From positions 1 to 64,000 of the forward strand of contig JAWBQJ010000002.1 of NCBI GenBank assembly GCA_038845865.1: a stretch of 64,000 nucleotides of DNA, written 5' to 3'. This document shows, one piece after another, positions 29,575-43,559 of this stretch. Both the position numbers and the translations under genes were made by a program. Every line of letters begins with the position of its first letter. Positions within the stretch are counted from its first letter, which is position 1. The stretch comes from Desulfurococcaceae archaeon (GTDB lineage: Archaea > Thermoproteota > Thermoprotei_A > Sulfolobales > Desulfurococcaceae). The notes under the pieces are model-generated. The model saw nothing but the letters and a program-made list of their open reading frames with translations, was not told the DNA's origin and made no database searches.

Positions 29575-30064
29575 AGTTTTCATAACGCATACTATTCACA
29601 CGATCTTTCGAGACCCTATCTACAAAGGAGTAGAAAAGCTATTCTTCTACGACATCAGGAGAAATGTAAATTTTACACTATTGAGGAGGTTACATAAGGG
29701 TTTAAACAAAGTGAACTCTATGTGGTGTTTACACGGAGTCTATTTTCGCCACAAAGAGGTCTCCTTTCGAGCAGCTCACCGTTCTCCCAGTATATTCAGG
29801 GTAATATTTCATCCATAGATCACCGCTCTCATCGAATGGAATTAATTGTACATTAAAGGAGTCAAATGTTTTTGAAATAAGCACAGGACCTGCTGGACAA
29901 GGAGATTGGAGAACAGGAGCTTGGATAAAGCAAAACACTTAATTTACTTCATTTTCTTTTCTTGTGGGTTGTTGTGATAAGGTGTCTAACGCGTGGAAAA
30001 CATTGATGAATAATAGGGGTAACTCGAGTATAAGTGAAACCCAGATCAGGTTCTACCAAGTACT
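29575..30064. other. Gene-poor stretch between P-ATPase remnants
   Basis: Nearly 500 bases. A 31-codon plus-strand frame (GTG 29982 to TAA, MSNAWKTLMNNRG...) follows a GATAAGG site and might be a leader or the lost N terminus of the next broken ATPase. The only longer frame is the weak minus-strand ORF listed separately. Confidence 0.35.
29729..29938 (-). CDS. Possible small protein, unknown
   Basis: 69 aa, no family recognised. The C-terminal part (FDESGDLWMKYYPEYTGRTV) has the look of a folded soluble protein rather than random translation, but it could be the tail of a truncated gene. No good ribosome site is seen. It converges on the P-ATPase pseudogene. Confidence 0.25.
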   Translation of the reverse strand: MFCFIQAPVLQSPCPAGPVLISKTFDSFNVQLIPFDESGDLWMKYYPEYTGRTVSCSKGDLFVAKIDSV

Positions 30065-30850
30065 GAGGAAATACTAATTTTGTCCGTTGAAAAGCTTCTT
30101 TTACGTTTGAAGTCACCGTTAAATGGGCTTACCTCTGAGGAGGCGAAAAGATGCCTCGAGCTTTTTAGCTATAACGAGCTCCCTACGAGAAAAGGAGAAC
30201 CATTATAGTTGATTTTCTATTTCATTTCAAAAACCCGCTAGTAGTAATCCTCCTTATTACTGGTCTAATTTCTGGCTTTCTCGCAGACATGACAGATATG
30301 GTCATCATATACACCATAGTATTGTTCAGCATAATCGTAGATTTCTATCAAGAACATAAAGCTGAAAGAGAGGCTGAAATGCTCAGACAAAGGGTGGCCA
30401 GAAAGACCACAGCCCTGAGAGATAGAGTCAAGAATGAGATAAAGATCGAGGGGATTGTTCCAGGAGATGCTGTACTTCTCTCAGCAGGTGACATAGTGCC
30501 TGCGGACGCCAGAGTCATAAGTGCGAAAGATCTGCTCACGGATGAATCCGTGTTAACTGGGGAATCTTACCTCGTTGAGAAAACAGATCAGCCGCTAAAG
30601 TCCTACGAACAATTGATAACGAAGTGACGTAACTACCTTTTCATGACTACCTTCGTCGTGAGCAGGACAACAATGGCCCTTGTTGCGAAGACAGGTAGTT
30701 CAACGAAGTATGGGAAAATCGGAAGAGACTTGCAAGGAGAAAGAGTGAGATGGGATTCGAGAAAATTAAGAGAACCCAGCGTGTATATCCTAGGAACATC
30801 TTCGAGGAGCTAGAGATACAGGGGCTCCAGGTGAATTTGCTTTCGAGAAC
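30065..30850 (+). pseudogene. Decayed Mg-type P-ATPase (N-terminal part)
   Basis: Degenerate, C-terminally truncated P-ATPase distinct from the one upstream. LKSPLNGLTSEEAKRCLELF and SYNELPTRKGEP (cation-ATPase N domain) run into a stop near 30207. A shifted frame then gives VDFLFHFKNPLVVILLITG and, at 30289-30627, EIKIEGIVPGDAVLLSAGDI and DESVLTGES (actuator). A third frame adds MTTFVVSRTTMALVAKTGSS, and a fourth EMGFEKIKRT. The order matches MgtA-like ATPases. The phosphorylation domain is missing; the next gene starts where it should be. Confidence 0.75.
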
Positions 30851-30866
30851 CAATGGTAGAGCTGAA

Positions 30867-31187
30867 CTATTCTACTTTTACCAGTTTTGATCTCTGTTTA
30901 TACAGGCTTAGCATATCCTTCTTTACCACGTGTACTTCGAAAGGGTCCTTTATTCCTTTCTCCCACAGTTTCACTAGTACCTTCTCCGGTGATTGATCCG
31001 TGACTACTAGTATGTCTATATCGCTCGACAGCGTGTACGTACCCTCAGCAACGCTACCGAAGAGGTAGACTTCGGCTTTTTCATCCAGTTCCTTGATTAC
31101 CTCCACGATTACCTTAAGGTAGTGCTCGAGGTTTCTAAAGACTTCAGCTCTATGCTTAGCTAACTTCACTAAGAGCCTCTCTGACAA
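30867..31187 (-). CDS. MNT-type nucleotidyltransferase (HEPN/MNT module 1)
   Basis: 106 aa minimal nucleotidyltransferase. The catalytic signature is LFGSVAEGTYTLSSDIDILVV (GSx10DxD; listed positions ~41-61). In HEPN/MNT toxin-antitoxin pairs the MNT protein can inactivate its HEPN partner by adding AMP groups; that activity is known for related pairs and inferred here. It overlaps the HEPN gene upstream by 32 bases, so the two are translationally coupled. It ends FEVHVVKKDMLSLYKQRSKL, like the MNT of module 4. Confidence 0.85.
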   Translation of the reverse strand: MSERLLVKLAKHRAEVFRNLEHYLKVIVEVIKELDEKAEVYLFGSVAEGTYTLSSDIDILVVTDQSPEKVLVKLWEKGIKDPFEVHVVKKDMLSLYKQRSKLVKVE

Positions 31188-31557
31188 CCCTGAACACCTT
31201 ATCCACTACTTCTCTGACCCTCACCACTTCTTCGGCTCTGAAATCTCTCGGCACGTACCTTGAGGTTATGTAGGCGTCTTCGAGTAAAGCTAGTTCTACG
31301 CTATGCTCCACCCACAGCTCTTTAACGTCTTCGTCACCCGTAAGCTCGTGCACCAGTTCGAGTAGCCTTCTAATGCTGTGCGTTCTCGGATAGTCTACGC
31401 CCAGAGAGAGTAGAGCCGCCTTCAAGAGCAATTGGAGGCTTTGCTCGAAACTAAACATCGCTAAGTCATAAAACCCCTTCTCGATCTGAAAGAGGGCAGA
31501 CTCGTAGAAACGCCTAGATCTCTCTAAGAGACTATTTACTTCATCTCGTTTGGTCAA
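31156..31557 (-). CDS. HEPN domain protein (module 1)
   Basis: 133 aa from TTG 31557, all helical. HEPN hallmarks are FSFEQSLQLLLKAALLSLG, YPRTHSIRRLLEL and LEDAYITSRYVPRDF. HEPN proteins of such pairs are often RNases and serve as the toxin. The frame extends to GTG 31572, but GAGGTG at 31565-31570 fits the TTG start better. A perfect inverted repeat sits directly upstream. Confidence 0.85.
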   Translation of the reverse strand: MTKRDEVNSLLERSRRFYESALFQIEKGFYDLAMFSFEQSLQLLLKAALLSLGVDYPRTHSIRRLLELVHELTGDEDVKELWVEHSVELALLEDAYITSRYVPRDFRAEEVVRVREVVDKVFRVVREALSEVS

Positions 31558-31578
31558 CAGTATACACCTCACATGCCT

Positions 31579-31598
31579 AATACTAATGACTTAGTATT
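31579..31598. promoter_or_regulatory. Inverted repeat upstream of HEPN/MNT module 1
   Basis: AATACTA - ATGACT - TAGTATT, 7-base perfect arms with a 6-base spacer, located between a TATA-like CTTAAGAA (31603-31610) and the HEPN start. The position suits an operator for self-repression. Confidence 0.45.
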
Positions 31599-31776
31599 CC
31601 TTTCTTAAGCTTACTACCCACTCCCAGCGCTAATTCAAACACACGAGGTCTTTGCATATCAATGTAGTTCATTTAATGACTAACAGTAGAAGAACACGTA
31701 TTCGTCGAAGCCGTTCCAATACACTACGAGAACCTACAACTGTTTTAAAACACACACCACTCTTACCGCCTTGTAG

Positions 31777-32045
31777 ATGAAGCAATCCACCAGAGTGATT
31801 AGCGTTTTGGTAAGCGCTTCCCGCTTGAGCTTGCCAGTTAGGAGGGGTTTACGTAGACTGGCGCAAAGAGGTGATGAAAGATATCGATTCGCAACAAACC
31901 TTCCCGAGCTTATCGTTGAGGAGGCTAGGAGGCAAGCTTTGGAATAAGGGAGAGCAACGTGTTTGTTGCAACGCCAAAGATAGTCTTGAAAGTTGATGGT
32001 AGAGTCCATTCCCCTAACGCAAAGCTAAGGGCTAAGCTAGCTTGA
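31777..32045 (+). pseudogene. Possible TnpB N-terminal relic
   Basis: From ATG 31777, MKQSTRVISVLVSASRLS runs to NLPELIVEEARRQALE and a stop near 31944. The adjacent frame then reads RESNVFVATPKIVLKVDGRV before another stop. The pattern (helix ending in A-R-x-A, then a beta strand starting PKIVLKVDGR) resembles the N-terminal part of IS1341-type TnpB, but the match is from memory of the family and weak. The C-terminal TnpB relic at 32200 is on the opposite strand, so they would be different copies or rearranged halves. Confidence 0.3.
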
Positions 32046-32184
32046 AGGCCAGCTAGAAGTAGAACGACAAACATACATGATAACAGTTTTACCTATCACA
32101 ACTGGATAAACCACTCTTCAACTCTTCACCGACTAGATCGGTTTTAAAGTTGAGAAAAGAGCTAGATCTTGAAATCTCCACTCT

Positions 32185-32300
32185 GACCTCCTCCCCGCCC
32201 TAAAGTACGGGGGTTCCGGGGAGGTTTAGGGCTACATTCCAGGCTCTCGCCGGGTTCGGCTCTGCACCCGAGACCGGGCGCACTACTCCTACCCCGCATG
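32185..32300 (-). ncRNA. Omega-RNA-like (TnpB guide RNA scaffold) 3' end, relic
   Basis: Minus-strand RNA would end in a hairpin with stem CCCCG (32208-32212) and CGGGG (32193-32197), then GAGGAGGTCAG. This conserved end is the usual right end of IS200/IS605-family tnpB elements in archaea, where the tnpB 3' end and right end form the omega (re)RNA. Bases below ~32182 would be the guide. The stem is short and interrupted (UACUUUAGGG loop), so it may be decayed. Confidence 0.45.
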
Positions 32301-32559
32301 GTGCTGGCACCTGGGCGGAGCCAGAAGCAAGCCCTGGCTTATCAAGCTTCAAGCAACTCGATATACCCACTGCGGCTACGGCCATAGAGTAACCATGACT
32401 GAGCGCTACAGCAAAAGACTCTAGTAACACCAGTAGAACTAAACCCACCAGAATGCAATCCGCAGACTTAGAGTACAGTAGTTTTACCCACGGATACGCT
32501 AGCCAGTTCTCACATATTGACGTCTGGAGGTACATCGGGAGGTTGAGCTCTGCTTGCAA
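32200..32559 (-). mobile_element. TnpB (IS1341-type) C-terminal relic
   Basis: An open frame whose end, LSHGYSMAVAAVGISSCLKL followed by a Gly/Pro/Ala-rich tail and NPARAWNVALNLPGTPVL, resembles the zinc-finger-to-C-terminus part of archaeal TnpB (normally HGYSMDRDVVAA-NI), with the DRD acidic motif lost. It runs into the omega-RNA-like right end. The N-terminal part of this frame is not TnpB-like. No RuvC active sites remain, so the element is dead. Confidence 0.45.
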
Positions 32560-32700
32560 AGACTACCGCTCCACCACTGCTTTAAGCCCCACTGAAGGCC
32601 ATTAGCGTGGTTTTAGAGGCTGACTCGCCGAGCACCAAGGTGTTTACGCGCTAAGAGCTTGTTCTCGAAGCCGCTCGATAGAATATAGCTTCCAGGAGGT

Positions 32701-33096
32701 TTAAGTAGGGGAGATCATAGTCCACGTTCTCCCCTGCCTAGCATACCTGCTCCTCACTTCCTTATAGATGTTCATCACCTCCTTCAGAAAATCTGTGTCT
32801 TCGAACAGTATCTTTCCTTCTTCTAGTATCTCGATAATGAAAGTGCTACCTTCTCTAAGCTTTTTAAGAAAGCTTTCTGTGTTAAAGCCGATTGGATGTA
32901 CTCTCGCGAAGCCGATGTCGCGAAGTACTGCGAAGCAGTCTCTCGGGTCTCTGGGGAGGTCGTCAGCAACTACGAGGACGTCTATATCGCTCCAGTCTGT
33001 GTAGTCTCCTCGCGCTCTAGACCCAAACAACACTACTAGTCTCAGCTTTAACTTGCTCCTATAGCTTTCTACTAGGTTACTTAACTCACTTAACAG
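32701..33096 (-). CDS. MNT-type nucleotidyltransferase (HEPN/MNT module 2)
   Basis: About 131 aa if begun at CTG 33096. The signature LFGSRARGDYTDWSDIDVLV gives the GS...DxD active site. Conventional starts exist only inside the motif (GTG 33036, TTG 33033), which would delete the first strand and helix. The frame upstream (SELSNLVESYRSKLKLRLVV) is clearly part of the fold and reaches back over the HEPN stop codon, so a non-standard CTG start, coupled to the HEPN gene by an 11-base overlap, is the best reading. Confidence 0.8.
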   Translation of the reverse strand: MLSELSNLVESYRSKLKLRLVVLFGSRARGDYTDWSDIDVLVVADDLPRDPRDCFAVLRDIGFARVHPIGFNTESFLKKLREGSTFIIEILEEGKILFEDTDFLKEVMNIYKEVRSRYARQGRTWTMISPT

Positions 33097-33469
33097 TAGA
33101 CTTCACCCAATCAATTATCTTACTCATGCACGAAAGACACCTTTCCGCATCTTCCTTCGTGTAGTAATCTGATGGAGTCCCTTCATCATAGACGTCTGGG
33201 TACCTTGATGGAATGTAGTGCTTGTCTAGGTATAGAACACACTGCTTAATCTCTTCTGGAACCTCAACTAGTGCTTCAGATAGGAGGAACAGTAGCGAGT
33301 GACCTCTCCTCTCTTTGTGAAGGTAGTTTAGAAGGGCTTTAATAGCCTTCTCGGCAGCTTGGTGAGACTCAAAGCATGCTTCTTCAAATATGCCTTCACG
33401 GTAATTAGCTAAAGCTGACATGGCGTTTCTCTCTGACTGCTTCAACCAATCCCTAAATCGAGAAACCAT
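33086..33469 (-). CDS. HEPN domain protein (module 2)
   Basis: 127 aa helical protein. FESHQAAEKAIKALLNYLHK, RGHSLLFLLSEAL and LDKHYIPSRYPDVYDEG are the HEPN signatures. Upstream partner of the MNT gene and likely the RNase-like component. A perfect 8-base inverted repeat lies 27 bases upstream of the start. Confidence 0.87.
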   Translation of the reverse strand: MVSRFRDWLKQSERNAMSALANYREGIFEEACFESHQAAEKAIKALLNYLHKERRGHSLLFLLSEALVEVPEEIKQCVLYLDKHYIPSRYPDVYDEGTPSDYYTKEDAERCLSCMSKIIDWVKSTVK

Positions 33470-33495
33470 ATTTACCGCCGCTTAAGCTACTCAAT

Positions 33496-33522
33496 GTTTA
33501 ATAACCTGGATAGCTATTAAAC
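33496..33522. promoter_or_regulatory. Inverted repeat upstream of HEPN/MNT module 2
   Basis: GTTTAATA (33496-33503) and TATTAAAC (33515-33522) are perfect inverted arms around 11 bases. The left arm also provides a TATA-like sequence at the right distance for the HEPN start, so a bound protein would block transcription. Confidence 0.45.
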
Positions 33523-33712
33523 TAAACCGTTCTGCGGCCTCTAACATCTTTATCGCCGACTAATCGGTTTCGCAGAAGGATCCATCATCTTTACAGCCCC
33601 TGAATGCCAGACCTCTACTGGAGCAAATAATCTAAGGATCATCTATGGCTAAATGTGGTTAGCAAGTCTTATATTATTCGAAAAATAGCCTTTAAACAGG
33701 GTGGTTATCGGA

Positions 33713-34213
33713 ATGTCCAAGAAGCTTTGCGAACCCTACGCCCTTCTACTTCGTAGACTTCTCGATGTAGCTATAGAGAGATTTGGTAGCGAGCTTATCT
33801 CATTTGTCGTGTACGGCTCTGTTGCTAGGTGCGAAGCTGGTAAGGAGAGCGATATAGACGTTCTTATAGTTTTGGAGAACCCCCCTAAGAGCAGGTTGAA
33901 GAGGCAGGAGCTGTTTATGTGGGTAGAAGAAGGCGTTGAGGAGGAGGTCGAGAGACTTAGGTCCCAAGGGTATAGTGTTGATTTTTCGCCTATTATAAAA
34001 AGTGTTAACGAGGCGAAGAAAGTATCGCCGGTTTATCTAGACATGGTTGAAGATGCTGTGGTACTGTATGATAAAGAGAACTTCTTTACAAACATCTTGA
34101 ACAACCTCAGAGAGAAACTTAAAGAGCTTGGAGCAGAGAGAGTAAGATGTGGTAGAAAATGGTATTGGAGACTTAAGAGAGACTACAAATTTGGTGAGGT
34201 AATAGAACTGTGA
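33713..34213 (+). CDS. Nucleotidyltransferase-domain protein (HEPN/MNT module 3)
   Basis: 166 aa. VVYGSVARCEAGKESDIDVL is the MNT active site, here in a longer protein with a C-terminal helical extension (~115-166). ATG 33713 is chosen because GGTGG lies 8 bases upstream; GTG 33701, which is in frame, overlaps that site. A TATA-like CTTTAAAC is at 33689. It overlaps the following HEPN gene by four bases (GTGA). Gene order is MNT then HEPN, opposite to the other three modules. Confidence 0.85.
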   Translation: MSKKLCEPYALLLRRLLDVAIERFGSELISFVVYGSVARCEAGKESDIDVLIVLENPPKSRLKRQELFMWVEEGVEEEVERLRSQGYSVDFSPIIKSVNEAKKVSPVYLDMVEDAVVLYDKENFFTNILNNLREKLKELGAERVRCGRKWYWRLKRDYKFGEVIEL

Positions 34214-34635
34214 ACAACGTATCTATGGCGCAATCCTACTTAAAGCAGGCTGAGGAGAGAATCCGGCACGCAAAGGAAGCACTTGAAGGAGGCAACTATC
34301 CGTACGTAATTAGGCAGTGTCAAGAGTCGGTTGAACTACTTCTTAAAGCAGCGCTAAGATTAGTTGGTGTTGAGGTGCCGAAATGGCATGATGTAGGACC
34401 TGTTCTCAGAAGAGAAGCGCAGAGGTTCCCCGAATGGTTTCAAGTTGAGATACCCATATTAGCGCGCATATCAAGGAAGCTACGCAGAGAAAGAGAACCC
34501 TCTATGTATGGAGATGAGGAAAGCGGCATTCCACCTGACGAGCTCTATGATAGATTCGACGCGGAAGAAGCACTTAACTACGCGTCAAAGGTTTACAGCA
34601 TAGTACTTAAGCTAATCCAGCAACACAAAACCTAA
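34210..34635 (+). CDS. HEPN domain protein (module 3)
   Basis: 141 aa. SYLKQAEERIRHAKEALEGG, QCQESVELLLKAALRLVG, WHDVGPVLRREA and FDAEEALNYASKVYSIV match HEPN proteins of the archaeal type. The GTG overlaps the MNT stop; an in-frame ATG six codons later is also possible. Pairs with the upstream MNT. Confidence 0.85.
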   Translation: MNNVSMAQSYLKQAEERIRHAKEALEGGNYPYVIRQCQESVELLLKAALRLVGVEVPKWHDVGPVLRREAQRFPEWFQVEIPILARISRKLRREREPSMYGDEESGIPPDELYDRFDAEEALNYASKVYSIVLKLIQQHKT

Positions 34636-34673
34636 ACCGCATTTGCTTATCCTAAAGACTGCCTGCATGTTGT

Positions 34674-34860
34674 TTAGTTTTTGGTTTTTCTGGTTATCTG
34701 GGTTACTTTAAGGGATTTCAGGTTTAATCCTAGGTATTTTGCTGTGAGCATGTATGCAGATGCTGTGTGCTTGTCTAATCCCAGCTCTCTTGATAAGTAG
34801 CCACCGGTTAGGTCTACTGAGTAGCCTTCTAGTGCTGGCGCTGGTAGACCGGCTATTCCT
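34674..34860 (-). pseudogene. 3' fragment of an unknown protein gene
   Basis: An open minus-strand frame preceded by a stop and lacking a normal start. It encodes APALEGYSVDLTGGYLSREL, GLDKHTASAYMLTAKYLGLN and a basic end. The regular helix-turn-helix feel of the middle part suggests a DNA-binding tail. No family recognised; a truncated gene is the simplest reading. Confidence 0.35.
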
Positions 34861-34968
34861 CACCCAGTAGAGACTAGTGAGTAGTTAGATGTTTTACGCC
34901 GAGCTTCAGCATAACTTTTACTTGGAAATAAGCCCAGCTTCTTATTCTTAATAAGCGGAGGTGGTTGA

Positions 34969-35418
34969 ATGACTTCTACAACTGGAGGATTCTTCGTGGG
35001 ATTCGGGCTTTGTCTACTCCTAGTCAGCCTTGGAGCTTCAGCAGCCTTAGGTCAGTATTATAGCCAAATCATGGAATGGAGAGGTGAGGTTGAACGGGTA
35101 TACAATATCACACACTCTCCAGATTATCGGAGTGCGATAGATGCTTTGGACGCCTTGTCGCCGTATGCAACCCAAATAGCAGACGCGCTACCCTGGATTG
35201 GACTAGGATGGCTCGCTGACTATATTAGGCGGATCCCAAGGGCTGCCACCTTCATGAGGCAGGTTTACAATTCAAGCGAATCCGCTTACTACGCCATGCA
35301 AGCTGTTGAGGTGACACCAGTATACTTGCAGTACGGTATGATCTCTGGCCTCTTCCTGATAATCGTAGGCATAATCCTTGTAGTGAGGACGAGAAGAAAA
35401 GGTCGGACCTTAAGATAA
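34969..35418 (+). CDS. Small bitopic membrane protein, unknown
   Basis: 149 aa. A hydrophobic N-terminal segment (GGFFVGFGLCLLLVSLGASA), an external helical region (~28-110) and a C-terminal membrane helix (MISGLFLIIVGIILVV) with basic tail RTRRKGR. GGAGGTGG precedes the ATG by 7 bases, and TTCTTAATAA upstream may be the TATA region. No family recognised. Confidence 0.72.
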   Translation: MTSTTGGFFVGFGLCLLLVSLGASAALGQYYSQIMEWRGEVERVYNITHSPDYRSAIDALDALSPYATQIADALPWIGLGWLADYIRRIPRAATFMRQVYNSSESAYYAMQAVEVTPVYLQYGMISGLFLIIVGIILVVRTRRKGRTLR

Positions 35419-35448
35419 CCCATTATGCTTACAACATTACTATGAGCC

Positions 35449-35673
35449 TCAGTAATCTTTCAGAATTTCGGGATGCTCCTCAAGGACTTTTAAAAATCCC
35501 TTGCTAGCGATATCGTGAACACTTATGCCCTTCTCGAGGAAGAATTTTTCAATAGTCCTTTTATCCAATCCAAGAACCCTCGCTTTAGCCCATACCTTCC
35601 ATGGATTATCTTTATGGGCTTTAGCGAAAGCCAACCATAGCTTGATCCTCATATTCAGGTTTAGGTTTTTCAT
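35449..35673 (-). CDS. Small basic helical protein, unknown
   Basis: 74 aa from ATG 35673 (TTG 35682 is also in frame). MRIKLWLAFAKAHKDNPWKV and VLGLDKRTIEKFFLEKGISV look like helix-rich, possibly HTH-like content. The start is ~40 bases from a TATA-like TTAAATAAA (minus strand, ~35712). No family recognised. Confidence 0.55.
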   Translation of the reverse strand: MKNLNLNMRIKLWLAFAKAHKDNPWKVWAKARVLGLDKRTIEKFFLEKGISVHDIASKGFLKVLEEHPEILKDY

Positions 35674-35905
35674 CGAGCTCAACGCTCAATGGTTATGCCT
35701 TAAATGTTTATTTATTTAACATTAAACAAATATTTCCCTTCATTTATGCCAATTTTTAAGCCTTAAGCGTGCTACCTGTCTCGGAAAGAGCCTTATTCTG
35801 AGTACTTTAACAAGCTCTTCCTCCAGCTTTGGGTAACTCCCTCGCATTAGAAAGTATAGATAAGCCTGTAAGCTTTTCTATCAGCATTAACTTTAGGGTG
35901 ATGGT
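35674..35905. other. Intergenic stretch with a possible gene remnant
   Basis: On the minus strand a 35-codon frame (ATG 35847 to stop at 35740) reads MRGSYPKLEEELVKVLRIRL and ends basic. It looks coding-like but is too short to name. The rest is AT-rich promoter-like DNA. Confidence 0.25.
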
Positions 35906-36052
35906 TTGGCTGACAAGTTCTATTTTGTAAAGTGTAGTGTAATGGGATATAGGTATGGAGCACCAGTATTCTGCCCGCTAGGAAAAGACAAGGATAAGAT
36001 AAAACAGCTACACGGAAAAAGAGTCTACGCGTTAATCATAGCGGAAGAGTAA
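35906..36052 (+). CDS. 48-residue protein, possible AbrB-like fold
   Basis: TTG start at 35906 after AGGGTGATG, stop at 36050. The protein reads MADKFYFVKCSVMGYRYGAP, then VFCPLGKDKDKIKQLHGKRV and YALIIAEE. Strand-turn-strand character and the ending GKRVYALII resemble swapped-hairpin AbrB-like or DUF2080-type small proteins of archaea, but this is a loose impression. Below the length at which ORFs are usually reported. A good ribosome site and coding-like composition support it. Confidence 0.5.
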   Translation: MADKFYFVKCSVMGYRYGAPVFCPLGKDKDKIKQLHGKRVYALIIAEE

Positions 36053-36090
36053 GTATCAGGTGATGTAAATTAATATGAAACTCAAAACAG

Positions 36091-36288
36091 TTGCACGAAG
36101 CGATGGATTTAATTAAGGCGGGATTCATGCTCGGGAGAGCTCTACACCACATCCAGGATGGAGCGCCTCAAACACATCTGACTGAGGAATCTATACACCT
36201 ACCACATCTAACCAGGCTTAAAGAGGCTACGAAAGAATTAAAGGCGCTGGAATTCCTCCTGCTCGTCTCCATAATACTTGATTGCTGA
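36091..36288 (+). CDS. Possible short protein or gene fragment
   Basis: 65 aa, TTG start, no clear ribosome site. AGFMLGRALHHIQDGAPQTH resembles the LGxALHxxQD helix of zinc-dependent phospholipase C/S1-P1 nuclease-like proteins, suggesting a leftover piece of such a gene. The end runs antisense into the ferredoxin gene, so only about 36091-36240 is likely to mean anything. Confidence 0.3.
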   Translation: MHEAMDLIKAGFMLGRALHHIQDGAPQTHLTEESIHLPHLTRLKEATKELKALEFLLLVSIILDC

Positions 36289-36477
36289 TGAGGGGCAGAT
36301 TTTCTGGCAACCCCTGCACAGCTCAACGCAGTTATCCGGTTTAACCACCACCGGCTTCCCGTCAGCGCCTATATCGAACACCCCGTGCGGGCAGAAGTTA
36401 TAGCAGGTTAAGCACCCACTGCACTTCTCGTAGTCTATTACTGGATACCAGTTCCTAGTCAAACCTAAACACCTCAC
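36238..36477 (-). CDS. 2[4Fe-4S] ferredoxin
   Basis: 79 aa. Two cluster motifs: CSGCLTCYNFCP (~19-30) and CVELCRGCQKICP (~49-61), the second with an extra residue (CxxxCxxCxxxC). Small electron carrier. It overlaps by 4 bases with the HdrA-like gene upstream, so both are made together and ferredoxin is a likely redox partner. The rest of an Hdr complex is not encoded nearby. Confidence 0.88.
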   Translation of the reverse strand: MRCLGLTRNWYPVIDYEKCSGCLTCYNFCPHGVFDIGADGKPVVVKPDNCVELCRGCQKICPSSAIKYYGDEQEEFQRL

Positions 36478-36836
36478 GTACTCAGAGCATCCTCAATAGC
36501 CTTGATGGCTTCCTCAGTACTCATGTTCCTTATTTCAACACCTCTAAACTTAGACTCATCGAAACCTAATTCTCGGAAAACCCATCCAAACATCTTCCGC
36601 TGCATTACTGGATCGCAGCCAGCCACTATAACCCTCTCAACGTCCCGGTTACCGCTCAGCAACGCCCTCCAAAAGTTATCGCCATCGGTTGCGCAGAGTT
36701 GCGGGTGAATCACTACGAAGTCAACTTTCTTATTCCTTCTGAAGTGGTTAATTACTTCAAAAACATTCATCTTATGAAACGACGGACACGTGCCTTGACA
36801 AACGCAAACGATTAAACCCTTCATGTGTACCGCCAT
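36474..36836 (-). CDS. Stand-alone HdrA N-terminal-like redox protein
   Basis: 120 aa. The N terminus GLIVCVCQGTCPSFHKMNVF, the middle HPQLCATDG and VERVIVAGCDPVMQRKMFGW follow the N-terminal domain of heterodisulfide reductase subunit A (VCxCG...C...AACSPxxHxxxF). The flavin and ferredoxin domains of full HdrA are absent. Conserved cysteines (five) could hold an Fe-S cluster. Predicted leaderless from the ATG at 36836, 28 bases after a TATA box. Function is unknown; an electron-transfer pair with the ferredoxin is inference. Confidence 0.65.
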   Translation of the reverse strand: MAVHMKGLIVCVCQGTCPSFHKMNVFEVINHFRRNKKVDFVVIHPQLCATDGDNFWRALLSGNRDVERVIVAGCDPVMQRKMFGWVFRELGFDESKFRGVEIRNMSTEEAIKAIEDALST

Positions 36837-36860
36837 TTATACGGATACATGGTATACTCA

Positions 36861-36868
36861 TATATAAA
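36861..36868 (-). promoter_or_regulatory. TATA box of the HdrA-like/ferredoxin operon
   Basis: TTTATATA on the minus strand, centred 28 bases from the ATG, the classic spacing for a leaderless crenarchaeal transcript. Confidence 0.6.
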
Positions 36869-37025
36869 CCTTCCACACCGTAGTACTCTATCTGAGATTG
36901 AGTTATGAAATAGCCTCCTGCGCTTCTAACGATTAAACCAGCTATCACTAACGCTATTGAGATCTTTGAAGCATCTACTTTCAAAAAATACTAAGAAGTA
37001 CGTAAAGTAGTGATACAGAGGGGGT

Positions 37026-37850
37026 TTGAATGAGGAGAAACCCGGTTCAGTCTTAGTTATGCTGACCTTAGCTTTAGGTTTAATGGTGCCCTCCGGATCG
37101 CTCAGCTTAGGCGATCCACGCAACCGATTCTCGCTCCAGAAAACTTCACAGTTACTTCAGGCGATAGCCTTACGTTTACAGCCACCTTGCTTTTGGATGG
37201 CGTATCCCTGGCTGGTAAAACCATCATCTTCTCGGCTACTCTTGGGATCATTAATCCATCCGTAGGTGTGACGGACGCCAACGGTAAGGCTTCGTTTGTC
37301 TACACGGCTCCGCAAACTAGTTGGGATCTACGTGAACATCACAGCCACCTTTGCTGGCTCTTCGCAATACGAGGGCAGTACTGCGGTTGCCTCAGGAATT
37401 GTTGAGCCTGCGCCTTCGCTAACACCTCTACCAACACTTCCGTCGATAACCCTTATAGGGACTTCATTCGCCGCTCCTGAAACGCTGGAGGATGATATAT
37501 CCTCATACAGGAACTCCACTCCAAGTGATATTATGAAGGCACTGCCAACCAGTTTACCTTCAGAAGCCTTCCCGCTGGCAACTAATGAAAGCCTCTACTT
37601 GGTTTTTGCTGAGCAAAGCGGTAAGGGCTCAGCCAAAGTGGATGGTTGGCTTTTGCCGACGCACATTCAGCTTGCAGGTTTAAACATAGCTGCTGTTGCT
37701 GCTAAACAGGTCACCTTTGTGAAAGAAGGTCCACCAACAACTCTTAGTAAAATCTTAGCAAATCCAGAAGGTTTTCATATTCCAACATTGTTTGTACAAC
37801 ACACCACAAAGCTTATAAAGTTCACCGAACTAGCGGAGCCATCCCACTAA
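37026..37850 (+). pseudogene. Frameshifted secreted Ig-like domain protein
   Basis: Three collinear pieces. A signal peptide (VMLTLALGLMVPSGSLSLG) is in one frame. From ~37125 a second frame gives ENFTVTSGDSLTFTATLLLD and GVTDANGKASFVYTAPQTS, an Ig-like (Big-type) fold. From ~37318 the first frame returns with VGIYVNITATFAGSSQYEG, a Pro/Ser linker and a C-terminal domain ending at 37850. The two shifts compensate. ATG 37030 after GAGGGGG is a natural start (MRRNPVQS) but is in yet another frame, so a third shift near 37050 is likely. Surface protein in decay. Confidence 0.65.
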
Positions 37851-38079
37851 TTATGGCGATGACGCCTAAGACTGTGAAGGCTACCGGAATAACTATAGGC
37901 GCCAGCATACAAACCCCAAGCAAGAACAGTCCAGCTAAAGCCAGCAGGGGCATCTTAGGATTCCAACGACAAAAATGAGGATTTCCTTCAGCATTTCTTA
38001 GCCTCCTTTTAGGTATAAGTTTCTGAAGCCTACACACGCATTTAGACGGTGGTTTAGAGCTGGGCAATCGCAGGAGCAA
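37822..38079 (-). CDS. Possible small membrane protein
   Basis: 85 aa with two hydrophobic stretches in the second half (MPLLALAGLFLLGVCMLAPI, IPVAFTVLGVIAIISGMAPL) and a basic first half. No family or ribosome site recognised; the basic half may not be translated and the real start could be the Met before PLLALAG. The end overlaps the pseudogene on the other strand. Confidence 0.35.
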   Translation of the reverse strand: MLLRLPSSKPPSKCVCRLQKLIPKRRLRNAEGNPHFCRWNPKMPLLALAGLFLLGVCMLAPIVIPVAFTVLGVIAIISGMAPLVR

Positions 38080-38467
38080 TCTACTGGCTTAGAAGAAGGA
38101 AGGAGAAGTAGGGTAATCCCTCCTTCAATTGAAGCGATCGCTTGTTACATGTTCATTTTTCTTTTAATATTCTGGGTAATTTTTCGATTTTGTTTTCATT
38201 TTTGCCACGTATGATGGATGAAAAAGATGATATCCTTTCATTTCGTTTAATAGCTGTTAACCGAAATATCATCGAACACGCAATGAAGAGGTCTCAAATC
38301 ATAGTCTCATAGGTTTCAAAGTCTCAAATGAAAATCGTAGCGCGTTACAATGATGTCGCAATGTGCTATCAAGGTAGTTCAATGTAGCATCATGTTCTAA
38401 ATGGTACTGAGTACCATGTAGCTCTATGCAGTACTGAGTAAAGCCTGGTGAGGCTAGGGAAAGGGGT
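38080..38467. other. Gene-free AT-rich stretch with short repeats
   Basis: No ORF supported. It holds GTCTCAAAT twice (38291, 38321), the palindrome ATGGTAC-TGA-GTACCAT (38401-38417) and a second GTACTGAGTA nearby (38431). These could be a binding site or degenerate element ends; nothing firmer can be said. Confidence 0.35.
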
Positions 38468-38641
38468 TTACGAGCTCGAGCTCAGTAGCTCCAAGACGAG
38501 TTCATATACTCTCTTGAGTTCTCTCGCTAAGAGTTGCCTAACCATGTTACGCGCGCTCGCCGTGTTAATCCCTCTTAAAGCCATCGATAAGACCTTTTCA
38601 TGACAAGTCTTACTTATTCTAGCTAAACAATAATGTCTCAA
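38468..38641 (-). CDS. Possible 57-residue helical protein
   Basis: TTG start at 38641, stop at 38468. Contains HYCLARISKTCHEKVLSMAL and ARELKRVYELVLELL, an amphipathic helical pattern. No family recognised and the ribosome site is weak (AGGAAAAG), so it may be a fragment. Confidence 0.3.
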   Translation of the reverse strand: MRHYCLARISKTCHEKVLSMALRGINTASARNMVRQLLARELKRVYELVLELLSSSS

Positions 38642-38697
38642 TTACTTTTCCTAAGGTGATGCGCTTACTAAACTTTTTCCCCTCTACCCCCTTTAAA

Positions 38698-38865
38698 TCA
38701 TACTAGAACATGTAGGAAAATATCTAGAAAAACTAGCAGTGGGAAGTACAGTCCTTCACCATTATACGCGTCTCTTCCTATACACATGTATAATCCTATG
38801 CCCAGGCCCAGAGCTCCCAACGCGATCGCTACTGCACCTTTTCCGAGCGTGGTGTTAAATCCCAT
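38698..38865 (-). CDS. Small two-helix membrane protein
   Basis: 55 aa from ATG 38865. Two membrane segments: GAVAIALGALGLGIGLYM and LYFPLLVFLDIFLHVLV, joined by a short polar loop (CIGRDAYNGEG). Composition is strongly membrane-like. No family recognised. Lies just upstream of the module 1-like HEPN/MNT pair's downstream end, on the same strand. Confidence 0.45.
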   Translation of the reverse strand: MGFNTTLGKGAVAIALGALGLGIGLYMCIGRDAYNGEGLYFPLLVFLDIFLHVLV

Positions 38866-38933
38866 AGGAGCGGGGAGTGCAGCATCGGAATCTATGAGAA
38901 AAGACTAGAAGAGTACAATGGAGGGAGTCAGTT

Positions 38934-39287
38934 CTACACTTCTACGTAGACGTCTATGAACTTCTTGTACCATTTCTCATATTCTTCTGGAGTTACAATA
39001 TGTACCTGGAAGATGTACTCAAAGCCCGGGTCCTCGAATATCTTCTTGTATAATTTCGCTCTCATCCACGGGTCCCTTGCAAGCTCCGTTACGAGGAGAA
39101 CATCAATATCGCTATCAGGCCTCATTTTGCCACGCACGTAGCTACCAAAGAGCATGGTTCTGCAAGTGGAGTCCGCAGATACGCATATCTCTTTGATCTT
39201 ACCTATATGTGTCATAATGCTCTCTAAGCACCTCTTCCTGGCGAGGTACTTGTGGTAGAGGAAGTCTATGAAGCCTTCTCGAGCCAT
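38934..39287 (-). CDS. MNT-type nucleotidyltransferase (HEPN/MNT module 4)
   Basis: 117 aa. The active site is MLFGSYVRGKMRPDSDIDVL, and the C-terminal part has FQVHIVTPEEYEKWYKKFID. It overlaps the HEPN gene by 22 bases. Sequence style, length and the F-x-VHxV element match module 1, suggesting the two modules share a recent origin. Confidence 0.86.
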   Translation of the reverse strand: MAREGFIDFLYHKYLARKRCLESIMTHIGKIKEICVSADSTCRTMLFGSYVRGKMRPDSDIDVLLVTELARDPWMRAKLYKKIFEDPGFEYIFQVHIVTPEEYEKWYKKFIDVYVEV

Positions 39288-39652
39288 TTAAACACCTCTA
39301 AAAGCCTTTTACCAAGTTCTAAAGCCCGTGTAGCAATCTCGGGATCGTACTCTCTAGGAATATATCTTGACGTAATGTATGACTCCTCTAGAAGGTATAG
39401 TAGCTCTATGTGAGAACCTATAACGCTCTCAAGTTCTTTACTTCCATAGATCTTCACAAGATCTTTAAGTAGACCAACGATCGAGTGGGTCTTTGGAAAA
39501 TCCCCCAGCCTTCTATACAATAAATACTTTGCGTAAAGCTGTATAGCCTGCTCTACGTGGAAGAGAACTAAGTCGTAGTCCCTCCGATCAAAATCATCAA
39601 TAGCATGCCTCAAGAATGACTCAGCTCTTCTACGTAAGATCTCGTAGCTCAC
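39266..39652 (-). CDS. HEPN domain protein (module 4)
   Basis: 128 aa helical. DLVLFHVEQAIQLYAKYLLY, FPKTHSIVGLLKDLV and LEESYITSRYIPREYDPE parallel the module 1 HEPN almost motif for motif. Promoter TATA at 39702-39709 with GTG start at 39652. Likely toxin-like RNase or a dead homologue; no test possible from sequence. Confidence 0.86.
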   Translation of the reverse strand: MSYEILRRRAESFLRHAIDDFDRRDYDLVLFHVEQAIQLYAKYLLYRRLGDFPKTHSIVGLLKDLVKIYGSKELESVIGSHIELLYLLEESYITSRYIPREYDPEIATRALELGKRLLEVFKWLEKAS

Positions 39653-39701
39653 TCGAAACCGCCCTCCTGAAAGTTCTCACAAACACGCTTATAGTCCTCT
39701 G

Positions 39702-39709
39702 TTTATATA
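39702..39709 (-). promoter_or_regulatory. TATA box of HEPN/MNT module 4
   Basis: ATATATAA on the minus strand, flanked by outer inverted arms TATAGT (39690-39695) and ACTATA (39721-39727 region) and inner CCTC/GAGG. The arms are shorter than at modules 1 and 2. Confidence 0.45.
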
Positions 39710-39756
39710 TCGAGGCTCATAACTATATAATCACGTTATTGCAACGGGGCCCGCTT

Positions 39757-40156
39757 TTAATCGAGGATTTCCCGAGAAAAAGCATATTGTAAAGGCGAAG
39801 AAAACTCTCTATGTACAGCACTTTTTAAAGTTCAGATAGTTATTCATGTAGCCGAGAGATTAAAACGAAGAGGTGCAGTAATAAAGCACGTGAAGAAGGG
39901 GTACTTAATAAACTCTGAAAGATCGGTAACGCAAGCGAGATTGCAGGTGCATTAAATTAAATGATCAGCGGGCTTGAGGATCTTGGTGAATCCTCAAACT
40001 ACATGTGGTGATCAGAGTGTTTAAGCCGGGATCCCGGCTCCCCTCACGGCAGTTAAATAATAGTAGCTATGAGTCATTTTCTTTGATTAGCCGATTCCCG
40101 CAGAGTTCTTGATCCACCCGCCTGGTAGTATAGTAGAGGCCTCGTTTACACGGGTA
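39757..40156. other. Gene remnant and palindrome at the end of the accessory region
   Basis: A plus-strand frame with no start codon (~39757-39960) reads ENSLCTALFKVQIVIHVAER and VKKGYLINSERSVTQARLQV, probably a broken gene of unknown family. A perfect 16-base palindrome AGCCGGGATCCCGGCT lies at 40024-40039. CGGGGCCCGC (39745-39754) resembles the 3' end of tRNA-Arg. No intact gene. Confidence 0.35.
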
Positions 40157-41329
40157 CTAGCTGAGGGCTTGTGCCAGGTCTTCTAATATGTCTTCGAGGT
40201 TTTCTAGCCCTAGTGATAGTCTAACTAGGTTTTCCGTTATGCCGAGCTTTCTCCTGGCCTCTTCCGGTATGAATGCTGATACCGATTTATATGGTAGTAC
40301 GGCCATCGTTTCCGTGGCGCCCAGGCTCGGGGACCTCCTGATCACCTTCAATCTGGATAGGAAGGCTACTGTATCCTGGTACGTTGATGCCTTGACCTTG
40401 AAGCTGAGGACCCCACCATAATACTGCCCGCCGAAAAGCTTCTTAGCTAAGTCGTGGTAAGGGCTTGACTGTAAACCTGGGTAATAGACCTCTTCTACTT
40501 TGGGATGGTCTTCGAGGAATTCGGCTACGGCTCTAGCGTTTTCACATGACCTCTTAAACCTCAAATGCAGTGTCTTCAACCCTCTAACCGCCAAGTAGGC
40601 TTCAAAAGGGCTCATTATAGTTCCCAGAACCCTCCTATACTCCCAAAGCTCCGATGCAAGCTTCTTACTCGAGGCAACAACGCCTCCCACTACGTCATTA
40701 TGCCCCGCAATGTACTTCGTAACGCTGTGGACGACCGCTGTCACCCCGTACTTCAAGGGCTTCAGCATGATCGGCGTAGTGAAAGTGCTATCTACTACGA
40801 TCACCACACTCTCATCGATACCCTTCACCAGTGACTCAAGGTCGATGACCTTAACGGTGGGGTTAGTGAGCACTTCTAAAAACACTACTGAAGTGCTTCT
40901 ATCCACGGCTTCGAGGATGGCCTCGGCTGAGGGCCACACGAGCTGGTAGCGTACGCCAGCCTTCTCTCTCAGCACCTCAAGAAACCTTACTGTGGCGCTG
41001 TAAACCTCATAGGGTACAATCACCTTTAAACCCGGCTTCATAAGTAGTAGAAGGGTGTTTGTTATAGCTGCCATACCGCTAGAAAACGCCAACGCGTCTT
41101 CAGCACCTTCAATCGTGGCGATGACCTTCTCGAAGTACCTCACCGTCGGGTTGGATTCCCTGCCGTACTTTAAGACCCTACCAGCATCATCGAGCTTCGC
41201 CAACCCCAAATCCTGGTCAATGTAACCGTACACGACACTGGTGTATATTGGAAAAACACCTGAATCGTACGGGTCCTCGAATAACGGACCTTTAGAGTAA
41301 ATGGTTTCATCCCGCATATCCACGCGCAT
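40157..41329 (-). CDS. Cystathionine gamma-synthase/lyase family PLP enzyme
   Basis: 390 aa. KYGRESNPTVRYFEKVIATI, FSSGMAAITNTLLLLMKPG, VVDSTFTTPIMLKPLKYG and the PLP lysine in HSVTKYIAGHNDVVGG define the Cys/Met metabolism PLP family. Members make or break cystathionine or release methanethiol from methionine; the choice cannot be made from sequence alone. Its gene is divergent from thrB-hom-lysC-asd, so use of homoserine-derived substrates is plausible. Confidence 0.9.
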   Translation of the reverse strand: MRVDMRDETIYSKGPLFEDPYDSGVFPIYTSVVYGYIDQDLGLAKLDDAGRVLKYGRESNPTVRYFEKVIATIEGAEDALAFSSGMAAITNTLLLLMKPGLKVIVPYEVYSATVRFLEVLREKAGVRYQLVWPSAEAILEAVDRSTSVVFLEVLTNPTVKVIDLESLVKGIDESVVIVVDSTFTTPIMLKPLKYGVTAVVHSVTKYIAGHNDVVGGVVASSKKLASELWEYRRVLGTIMSPFEAYLAVRGLKTLHLRFKRSCENARAVAEFLEDHPKVEEVYYPGLQSSPYHDLAKKLFGGQYYGGVLSFKVKASTYQDTVAFLSRLKVIRRSPSLGATETMAVLPYKSVSAFIPEEARRKLGITENLVRLSLGLENLEDILEDLAQALS

Positions 41330-41478
41330 TCACCAAGTGCGCACAAACTACTCCACGGGGAGAGTACACATTACCAGGAACTAATAAAGCTGACACGGCA
41401 CCGTGACGGCGCGCCAGTAACCTAGTAGAGCTTCACCAAGTACACTGAGTATGTACTGCTATTACATGATAGAAAGAT

Positions 41479-41486
41479 TTTTAAAG
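41479..41486 (+). promoter_or_regulatory. TATA box of the aspartate-family operon
   Basis: TTTTAAAG predicts a transcript start near 41505-41510. That is downstream of the GTG (41498) at the head of the thrB frame, which makes the thrB start codon uncertain. Confidence 0.45.
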
Positions 41487-41497
41487 CCTGCCTCCAA

Positions 41498-42532
41498 GTG
41501 ATTAAACAAAACCGTGTATGTGCATCTGAATACCGGGGTGATGGAGGTGCACCCGATGTATTCCATGGCGTAGAGGCAAGACGCGTTACAGTAAGAGCGC
41601 CGGCATCAATAGCTAACTTAGGCCCGGGTTTCGACATACTAGCTATGGCAATAGGTGGGCTTTACGATACCGTTAGCGTAACGGTAAGGCCTGGCCCCGG
41701 AGCAATACACGTCACCTCCGTGGGCTTCAACGTTCCTTCAGGAGAGCTTAACGTTGCCTACGCGGTTACAAGGGAGTTCATCTCTAAGTACGGTATACGT
41801 GGAGTAGACGTGTATGTTGACGTCGTGAAGGGTGTTCCCCCCGCGTGCGGGCTAGGAAGCTCGGGTGCAACGGCTGCAGCTGTGGCATACGCCCTTTCCA
41901 GGGTATTCAACCTCAGCATTAGAGAGGAAGACCTCCTACATTTGGCCGGTATAGGGGAACTGCACGTTGCGGGTTCACTCCACTACGACAACGTAGCGGC
42001 AAGCCTGTTCGGAGGAGTTGTCATCGTTGATCCAGAGTCTAGAGAGGTTTTGAAGTACACTCCTAGAGTGCAGATACCGGTAGCGGTCGTCGCACCACTA
42101 ATTCCCGGGCTACGCTGCGTGAGGAAGACAGAGTATGCGAGGTCCCTACTACCCGAGCACGTAGAGCTCAGCACGCACGTAAGGCAGACCTCGGCGCTGG
42201 CGAGGCTGATCTACGCCTTACTCACGGATAACATAGAGCTTCTGGGGAAGTCCATATCGGTAGACTACATTGCCGAGCCTCACAGGTCGAAGCTTATACC
42301 GTACTATTGCGAGCTAAAGGAACTTGCACTGAGAAACGGGGCACTAGGCTTCAACATCTCGGGCGCCGGCCCCTCAGTATTCTTCATGCACAGAAACACC
42401 GAAGAGGCCAGGACAACCGGCGAACTACTAGTAGAGTTCTTGAAGTCCAAGGGCGTAGACGCCTCCCTCTACGTTTCCACCGTATCTCCAGACGGCGCGA
42501 AGCCCCTAGGTGAGAGCCATGATAAGAGCTAA
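41498..42532 (+). CDS. thrB: Homoserine kinase
   Basis: 344 aa as framed. GHMP kinase: VRAPASIANLGPGFDILAMA (start strand), the ATP loop PPACGLGSSGATAAAVAYAL, and GFNISGAGPSVFFM near the C terminus. It phosphorylates homoserine on the way to threonine. The first ~30 residues (IKQNRVCASEYRGDGGAPD) are not family-like, and no ATG/GTG/TTG is in frame between 41498 and the conserved core. An ATG in another frame (41540, after GGGGTG) would need a frameshift. First gene of the operon. Confidence 0.9.
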   Translation: MIKQNRVCASEYRGDGGAPDVFHGVEARRVTVRAPASIANLGPGFDILAMAIGGLYDTVSVTVRPGPGAIHVTSVGFNVPSGELNVAYAVTREFISKYGIRGVDVYVDVVKGVPPACGLGSSGATAAAVAYALSRVFNLSIREEDLLHLAGIGELHVAGSLHYDNVAASLFGGVVIVDPESREVLKYTPRVQIPVAVVAPLIPGLRCVRKTEYARSLLPEHVELSTHVRQTSALARLIYALLTDNIELLGKSISVDYIAEPHRSKLIPYYCELKELALRNGALGFNISGAGPSVFFMHRNTEEARTTGELLVEFLKSKGVDASLYVSTVSPDGAKPLGESHDKS

Positions 42533-43559
42533 GCTAGTGGTAGTCGGGTTTGGGAGCGTAGGGAGGTCGCTGGTAAAAATCGTAGCTTATAGGGGTAGAG
42601 CTCTAGCTAACAAGTACTCATTAATGCTAAGAGTAGTTGGAGTAGTAGACTCCAAGGGCATGGCCTTCAAGGCCGGTGGCTTTGAAGAACACGAACTACT
42701 AAAACTCTGCGAGCTACCGAGGTCTGGCGTGCCTTTGTTCAAACCTTACGCCAGGGACTACGTAGACTTGGAGGAGCTATACTCCGTGACCCAGCCGGAT
42801 GTGCACGTCGAGTTAACGCCGTCAAATTACGAAACCGGCGAACCCGGGTTGTCAAACATACTGCGTGCTCTAAGCCGCGGGATACACGTAGTTACCGCCA
42901 ATAAGGCACCAATAGCCCTGCACTACGGCGAACTGATGAGCCTTGTAAGGAGTAGAAAAACCGCGTTGAAATTTGGGGCGACTGTGATGGGTGGGACGCC
43001 TTTCATCGAAATGCTTTCCCACATGAAAACCCACGAGATCGAGCGCGTTGCAGGAATACTCAACGCGACGACGAACTACATACTTACAGAAATGCACAAA
43101 AACCTAGTAGACTTCGAAGATGCATTAAACAGGGCAAAAGCCATAGGCGTTGCCGAGGCGGATCCCTCACTAGATATCGAAGGCGTAGACGCGGCTGCCA
43201 AGTTGACGATAATATCACATGTCGTAGGGCGTTCCGTGAAAATGAGTGACGTCGAACGAGAGAGCCTTACCACGGTTAAACTCAAAGACGTTGTCGAGGC
43301 GCTTAGACACGGTTACGTCTTGAAGTACGTGGCTTCACTAGACTTCGAGAAAGGTAAAGCGTCTGTAAAAGTTCTACGCGTGCCCCGAGAGGACTTGCTG
43401 GCTACGGTTGAAGGTACACTGAACTGCGTTAAGGTGAAAACCAGCGTATCCGACCTAGTGCTCGTGGGGAAGGGTGGAGGTGGTTCAGAGACGGCGCACA
43501 CCGTTCTAAACGACGTGTTATCGGTCATCTACGCGCACCCTCCAGGTGATCTTCTGTGA
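42519..43559 (+). CDS. hom: Homoserine dehydrogenase
   Basis: 346 aa from ATG 42519 (GTG 42510 also in frame). The NAD(P) motif VVVGFGSVGRSLVKIV is at the N terminus; VTANKAPIALHYGEL and GATVMGGTPFIEML, then GILNATTNYIL and ADPSLDIEGVDAAAKL, are the catalytic and substrate-binding blocks. Reduces aspartate semialdehyde to homoserine. No C-terminal ACT domain, as in many archaea. Overlaps thrB by 14 bases. Confidence 0.94.
   Translation: MIRAKLVVVGFGSVGRSLVKIVAYRGRALANKYSLMLRVVGVVDSKGMAFKAGGFEEHELLKLCELPRSGVPLFKPYARDYVDLEELYSVTQPDVHVELTPSNYETGEPGLSNILRALSRGIHVVTANKAPIALHYGELMSLVRSRKTALKFGATVMGGTPFIEMLSHMKTHEIERVAGILNATTNYILTEMHKNLVDFEDALNRAKAIGVAEADPSLDIEGVDAAAKLTIISHVVGRSVKMSDVERESLTTVKLKDVVEALRHGYVLKYVASLDFEKGKASVKVLRVPREDLLATVEGTLNCVKVKTSVSDLVLVGKGGGGSETAHTVLNDVLSVIYAHPPGDLL

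Follow-up and report, generated by a model that had tools for sequence, protein, structure and literature searches.

A 64,000-nucleotide stretch of DNA from a Desulfurococcaceae archaeon (hereafter the window) carries a gene pair, recurrent across archaea and some bacteria, that encodes a small stand-alone homologue of the HdrA N-terminal domain together with its own 2[4Fe-4S] ferredoxin. We propose, with a probability of about 45%, that this pair is a ferredoxin-linked Fe–S redox module that acts under metal(loid)/thiol stress and was ancestrally under ArsR-type control in the wider clade of the window; the stress role is our best-supported guess, and arsenic is a candidate substrate or inducer. 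HdrA domains have so far been studied within electron-bifurcating complexes. If true, a widespread free-standing HdrA domain with an extra ligand would show how such complexes could be built up from autonomous redox parts or fall apart into them, and anaerobic metal(loid)/thiol defence would gain a candidate enzyme linked to ferredoxin. The pair was undescribed in the literature searched, where most subscription papers were outside coverage.

The two open reading frames (ORFs) span 36238–36836 and overlap by 4 nt (GTGA), which, together with the family-wide pairing described below, upholds the coupling proposed in the initial annotation; both ORFs are real, but their strand had to be corrected to minus (Table 1). 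The promoter had been called leaderless. The start codon common to the relatives corresponds to window position 36824 (MKGLIVC), and several relatives carry just upstream of it the hexamer GGTGAT, which we take to be Shine–Dalgarno-like. Given this shared start, the relatives' hexamer and the position of the TATA box, it is likelier that the first protein of the window starts at ATG 36824, has 116 aa and is preceded by a leader of ~14 nt, so that its mRNA is probably not leaderless.

Table 1 Features of the gene pair and its surroundings in the window
Feature	Position	Strand	Remarks
HdrA-N-like Fe–S protein gene	36474..36836	minus	120 codons from ATG 36836, stop included
2[4Fe-4S] ferredoxin gene	36238..36477	minus	79 codons, GTG start, stop included
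TATA-box-like TTTATATA	36861..36868	minus	aligned with relatives
GGCGGT at the site of the relatives' GGTGAT	36829..36834	minus	ribosome-binding-site-like
Decayed ArsR-operator-like palindrome site	36839..36860	minus	TGAA-N6-TTCA here in G078, G057, G446, G452 and G032
arsR start stub	36161..36198	minus	GTG at 36198-36196; rest of arsR deleted

The first protein shares ancestry with the HdrA N-terminal domain. No Pfam family matched the 120-codon protein at E ≤ 1, and in NCBIfam it aligned to three HdrA models over model positions 3–102 of ~770 only (E 5e-4 to 2e-3). With a family profile or by fold comparison the relationship is far from chance: three HdrA sequences were the sole matches of the sequence profile to the PDB at E ≤ 0.1, and the AlphaFold model, built on a 46-member alignment, was confident (pLDDT 89.9, pTM 0.84) and retrieved seven HdrA chains from the PDB by Foldseek (E 8e-6 to 8e-5; next match E 0.01), the VIA fold comparison giving Z 12.1–14.1 for HdrA and 7.3 for the next best. 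The restriction of the match to the first HdrA domain, as originally described, is borne out by these data, and no other family fitted better, the only strong PDB folds being those of HdrA. The fold shared with the HdrA N-terminal Fe–S domain (PDB 5odc, 7bkb/7bkd, 8rvu/8rvy and 9sfi) extends over 114–116 aligned residues at 22–23% identity, and four of the five cysteines of the family have equivalents there. In contrast to HdrA, the family protein stands alone at ~116–120 aa, lacks the FAD/thioredoxin-reductase domain and the inserted and C-terminal ferredoxin domains, has an extra cysteine (C17) and a separate ferredoxin gene, and has no HdrB/C adjoining. Two further candidates were rejected: HypC, which gave weaker and partial matches (NCBIfam E 0.008; PDB 2ot2, E 0.07) and was absent among fold matches at E ≤ 0.001, and a remote homology between the HdrA-N-like protein and DGC, whose GC...C motifs look alike by eye (hhalign probability 1.5%).

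Every one of the 46 aligned members has C13, C17, C48 and C74, and at least 90% also have C11; the AlphaFold model places all five in the loops after strands 1, 2 and 3. The HdrA N-termini used for comparison, 18 distinct sequences in 19 rows (L002 and L093 both representing the organism's own gene), have equivalents of C11, C13, C48 and C74 and an isoleucine in the C17 column; the 176-aa L157 ORF, which is no HdrA N-terminus, was excluded, and the alignment of L154 stops at the last cysteine owing to a spurious extension. C17 therefore occurs in 46 of 46 family members and 0 of 18 HdrA N-termini, and the members form a family of their own. In published work, one ligand of the HdrA N-terminal cluster, Cys197, is supplied by another subunit (PMC9012536); the stand-alone protein contains no counterpart of the domain that bears it. 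Since C17 is invariant here and HdrA borrows a ligand from its partner, C17 may replace the borrowed ligand and make the putative cluster of the stand-alone protein self-contained.

The assignment of the second protein as a 2[4Fe-4S] ferredoxin was confirmed by eight conserved cysteines in two four-cysteine cluster motifs and by Fer4 matches. It shares this dicluster Fer4 fold family and the eight cysteines with HgcB and other 2[4Fe-4S] ferredoxins, but HgcB, its best NCBIfam match, scored 46.3 bits, below the curated cut-off of 99, and it is further set apart by a second motif of the form CX3CX2CX3C and a W-Y conserved near the N-terminus. The ferredoxin lies within 50 nt of the first gene on the same strand at 49 of 57 mapped loci, downstream in 43 and upstream in 6, with 15 overlaps. 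The exceptions are L023, where no ferredoxin was found; L029, where an antisense ORF hid the first gene in gene calling, yet the two are adjacent; L067, L084 and L124, in which the copy is a fragment or the ferredoxin is more distant or below threshold; and L085, L123 and L091, which are broken or partial copies. Because pairing is kept while gene order varies, these loci argue for a functional pair of HdrA-N-like protein and ferredoxin. At L091 (genome G032) the first gene is in two pieces ~5.8 kb apart, and an insertion is likely.

Of the 398 genomes from the window's phylum, 48 matched a 20-member profile at E ≤ 1e-8; reading the match table by eye, we assigned short family ORFs to 34 of them (31 full-length and 3 fragmented, in G032, G153 and G133), the other 14 being HdrA-like (E 1e-8 to 3e-12) and nearly all in ORFs of more than 600 aa (189 aa in G177). 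Nine strong matches were found among 99 relatives, the window's own genome included, with the copy in G032 split and that in G007 full of stops, and an intact copy was present in none of seven other genomes of the same genus, two of which are <80% complete. Other phyla have the family too: 15 of 115 genomes carry it in the phylum to which a Thermococcaceae genome belongs (three partial or split), 2 of 251 in that of a Mesolinea genome and 2 of 29 in that of an Altiarchaeales-labelled genome, each of the last two counts including the named genome. An exact peptide pattern scan of a species-genome collection returned at least 18 named loci, the names being partly MAG labels open to misbinning. 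Plasmid and viral-contig collections gave no match to the pair. The tRNA genes near some loci differ in kind and give no support for a single integration site.

Its homology to the HdrA N-terminal domain raises the question of whether the protein is an accessory subunit of HdrABC or of another bifurcating complex, docked where the HdrA N-terminal domain sits, and the window's genome does contain an apparent HdrABC–Mvh cluster. This cluster (L093, C2:239471-246251) lies on the same contig ~203 kb from the pair and comprises HdrB, HdrC, the [NiFe]-hydrogenase large and small subunits, an MvhD-like protein and HdrA, with HdrB called by PF02754, HdrA by profile and the others by eye. The statement that no HdrB/C or hydrogenase is near thus stands for the surroundings, no Hdr or hydrogenase gene being seen among the listed ORFs at 30000–43000, but not for the contig. 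Elsewhere, no PF02754 (HdrB-type) domain was detected at E ≤ 1e-5 in 24 of 51 carrier genomes, none of the PF02754 matches listed fell within 8 kb of the pair, and a scan of the 57 loci found no CCG-like motif and a long HdrA-like ORF only at L064. The neighbourhood survey of homologues that had been suggested as a check therefore places no Hdr cluster beside the pair, with PF02754 judged among the matches listed. Together, these observations hold that the pair is independent of Hdr clusters family-wide, and, as a docked domain would have no need of C17, we consider the accessory-subunit explanation improbable.

In the wider clade of the window, the pair adjoins a gene for an ArsR-type regulator. 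A homologue of the G078 regulator, which itself scores above the NF033788 cut-off, is adjacent to the pair in G078, G451, G024, G057, G446 and G452, and in G032, where the copy is split, it adjoins the half with the ferredoxin. In the 18 genomes searched, no homologue at E ≤ 1e-5 was found in the window's genome (G000), G012, G051, G445 or G041, nor in G002–G005, which lack the pair, or G007, which holds a remnant; in G282 the pair has no adjoining arsR and an arsR-like gene lies elsewhere (E 8.3e-17). An inverted repeat, TGAA-N6-TTCA, occurs within 70 nt upstream of the start codon in six of seven copies with the clade's arsR (G451 being the exception) versus one of six others (G282), although independent losses are few and the four arsR-less copies near the window form one clade. 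The repeat closely follows the TATA-like box in all but G024, in which it directly precedes the start codon. Published work on ArsR/SmtB sites describes 12-2-12 or 6-2-6 repeats over the promoter or start site (PMC8790569, PMC5658604). The relatives' promoters thus show the pattern of ArsR operons, an ArsR/SmtB-family gene with an inverted repeat as putative operator. This candidate operator rests on the shared core and not on a free palindrome search (arms 7, spacer 2), which gave small p values for G078 (0.003) and G452 (0.007) only. The seven clade regulators have one cysteine near the N-terminus and one in a PLPVC/PLPTC motif, and a CxC motif is found in 17 of 26 neighbouring ArsRs. In the window copy the core repeat is absent, and arsR persists only as a stub. 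A different palindrome-like element, of the type CATTTGAAAATATTTTTAAATG, precedes the first gene by ~48 nt at Thermococcus-type loci (L016–L018 and L116–L123); the scan that revealed it used shuffled controls of the mononucleotide type only.

The adjoining arsR would also suit a redox or metal sensor, in which the Fe–S protein acts with ArsR or another regulator and donates no electrons to a substrate. A dedicated ferredoxin speaks against this explanation, as does the persistence of the pair without arsR at Thermococcus-type loci and in the clade of the window, and we regard it as very improbable.

In the window, the DNA of the pair is 84–91% identical to that of G078, G051, G012 and GXS (L014), in blocks of ~0.7–1.1 kb whose flanks gave no match, with a synonymous divergence of 0.11–0.56. 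By comparison, homoserine dehydrogenase is only 60% identical to that of G051 and 54% to that of a same-genus genome, a comparison that rests mainly on G051, G041 and G002, 6 of 11 genomes having no match at E ≤ 1e-10. The low synonymous divergence of the pair against the divergent homoserine dehydrogenase indicates that a short cassette was spread by recent horizontal transfer. The arsR-less copies of the window, GXS, G051 and G012 retain ~38 nt of the start of arsR followed by a common, unrelated sequence; the stub was recognized by blastn in GXS, G051 and G012 (E 5e-4 to 0.02), the stretch in the window alone being too eroded. Because stub and following sequence are shared, arsR was probably deleted once, before the spread.

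The initial annotation placed the pair in an island where other genes are breaking, a claim that we tested in part: a truncated P-type (E1-E2) ATPase ORF at 30289–30624 (PF00122 positions 4–65 of 181) and the arsR stub after the pair agree with it. The window's own pair might then be a passenger heading for decay, since arsR is gone, both the operator and the GGTGAT hexamer have eroded and neighbours are truncated, as the broken copies in G032 and G007 would exemplify. Yet both ORFs are intact with all cysteines kept, and dN/dS is 0.09–0.29 against the four relatives, which indicates that the proteins are kept under selection; decay is thus an improbable account. Four nucleotidyltransferase/HEPN-type pairs also flank the ferredoxin pair, at 30867–31572, 32701–33469, 33701–34635 (by Pfam) and 38934–39652 (by eye).

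Compared with 20 control stretches, each of 14 kb and taken from the same genomes, and using neighbour profiles derived from the loci themselves, ArsR was enriched near the pair (24/57 loci versus 0/20; Fisher p 1.4e-4), as was DGC (22/57 versus 0/20; p 3.4e-4). NifX-like (12/57), OsmC (11/57) and CcdA-like (7/57) genes had no counterpart in controls, nor did the PF04060 Fe–S protein (7/57; p 0.11); UroD-like (6/57) and Lrp-like (8/57) genes each occurred in 1/20 controls. In a less circular test, curated families were counted genome-wide in the 51 carriers, with positions transcribed by hand and Thermococcus relatives not independent. ACR3 above cut-off had 19 copies in 17 carriers and lay within 8 kb of the pair in 9 of these 17 (0.17 expected), that is, in 9 of 51 carriers, far above chance, but within 2 kb in one genome only; DGC had 46 copies in 28 carriers and lay within 8 kb in 20 (0.43 expected) and within 2 kb in 18. 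It speaks against a stress role that, above cut-off, ACR3 is absent from 34 of the 51 carriers and DGC from 23, the window's genome having neither. ArsG above cut-off at L028 and an ArsC-like protein below curated cut-offs at L121 suggest that some loci lie in arsenic-type surroundings. The L076 'ACR3' of the locus-derived profile proved to be a general BASS-family protein (52 bits), and as some other such tags fall below cut-off, we prefer the curated genome-wide counts. The partner of the pair had been called unknown; the window copy indeed has an arsR stub only, whereas elsewhere recurrent companions are an adjacent ArsR-type regulator, DGC or an arsenic-resistance neighbourhood. Like ars operons, the pair has an ArsR-type regulator and an operator-like repeat, with ACR3 or ArsG nearby in several lineages, but ACR3 is missing from most carriers and, to our knowledge, neither of the two proteins has been counted among ars components.

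These neighbours could instead reflect Fe–S/sulfur homeostasis, the pair feeding electrons to the assembly or repair of clusters or to the handling of persulfides, with DGC, SufBC-, Mrp-, NifX-like, OsmC- or TusA-like partners, and arsenic genes being near since both are thiol-related. DGC adjoins the pair in many loci, the NifX-like and OsmC counts fit, a TusA-like ORF is seen by eye at L007, and Thermococcus-type loci, mostly without an adjacent arsR, carry SufB/D- and SufC-like genes that are oriented divergently to it, a setting that also counts against the stress module. Against the homeostasis role, Mrp is not enriched (6/57 loci versus 1/20 controls; p 0.41), Suf-like genes were noted only at Thermococcus-type loci, and ArsR and ACR3 are nearby in lineages without Suf or Mrp neighbours. 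We consider such a role possible, if on the unlikely side.

In the stress module that we favour, the ferredoxin would pass low-potential electrons to the small Rossmann-like HdrA-N-related protein, in which C17 would allow an own [4Fe-4S] cluster without a second-subunit ligand and leave a fifth cysteine near the site; the pair would then probably reduce disulfide, persulfide or metalloid–thiol species under metal(loid)/thiol stress. The ancestral operon in the wider clade of the window would have joined the HdrA-N-like and ferredoxin genes to arsR, whose ArsR-type product would have repressed the operon at TGAA-N6-TTCA near the TATA box, and the window copy, putatively acquired horizontally and having lost arsR and operator, is probably expressed without ArsR control. 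A bolder and rather doubtful extension sees in the pair a metalloid/thiol reductase of anaerobes, so far unnamed and driven by ferredoxin. In this view one HdrA-type domain with its own fourth ligand would work outside an electron-bifurcating enzyme and, together with a dedicated ferredoxin and a repressor responsive to thiophilic metal(loid)s, would make up a mobile detoxification operon that has moved among distant archaea and bacteria. As such a reductase, it would use the non-ligand cysteine as a reactive thiol beside the cluster; ferredoxin:thioredoxin reductase has a somewhat similar reactive thiol next to its cluster. The predictions on regulator, operator and cysteines are each open to direct test.

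Loci of the f18 type stand beside Mrp-like and DGC genes, which again counts against the stress module. At L077, L080 and L081 the pair has two to five tandem DGC-domain genes downstream and, after these, a GcvH-like gene of the lipoyl-carrier type, with ACR3 upstream of the pair in two of these three loci.
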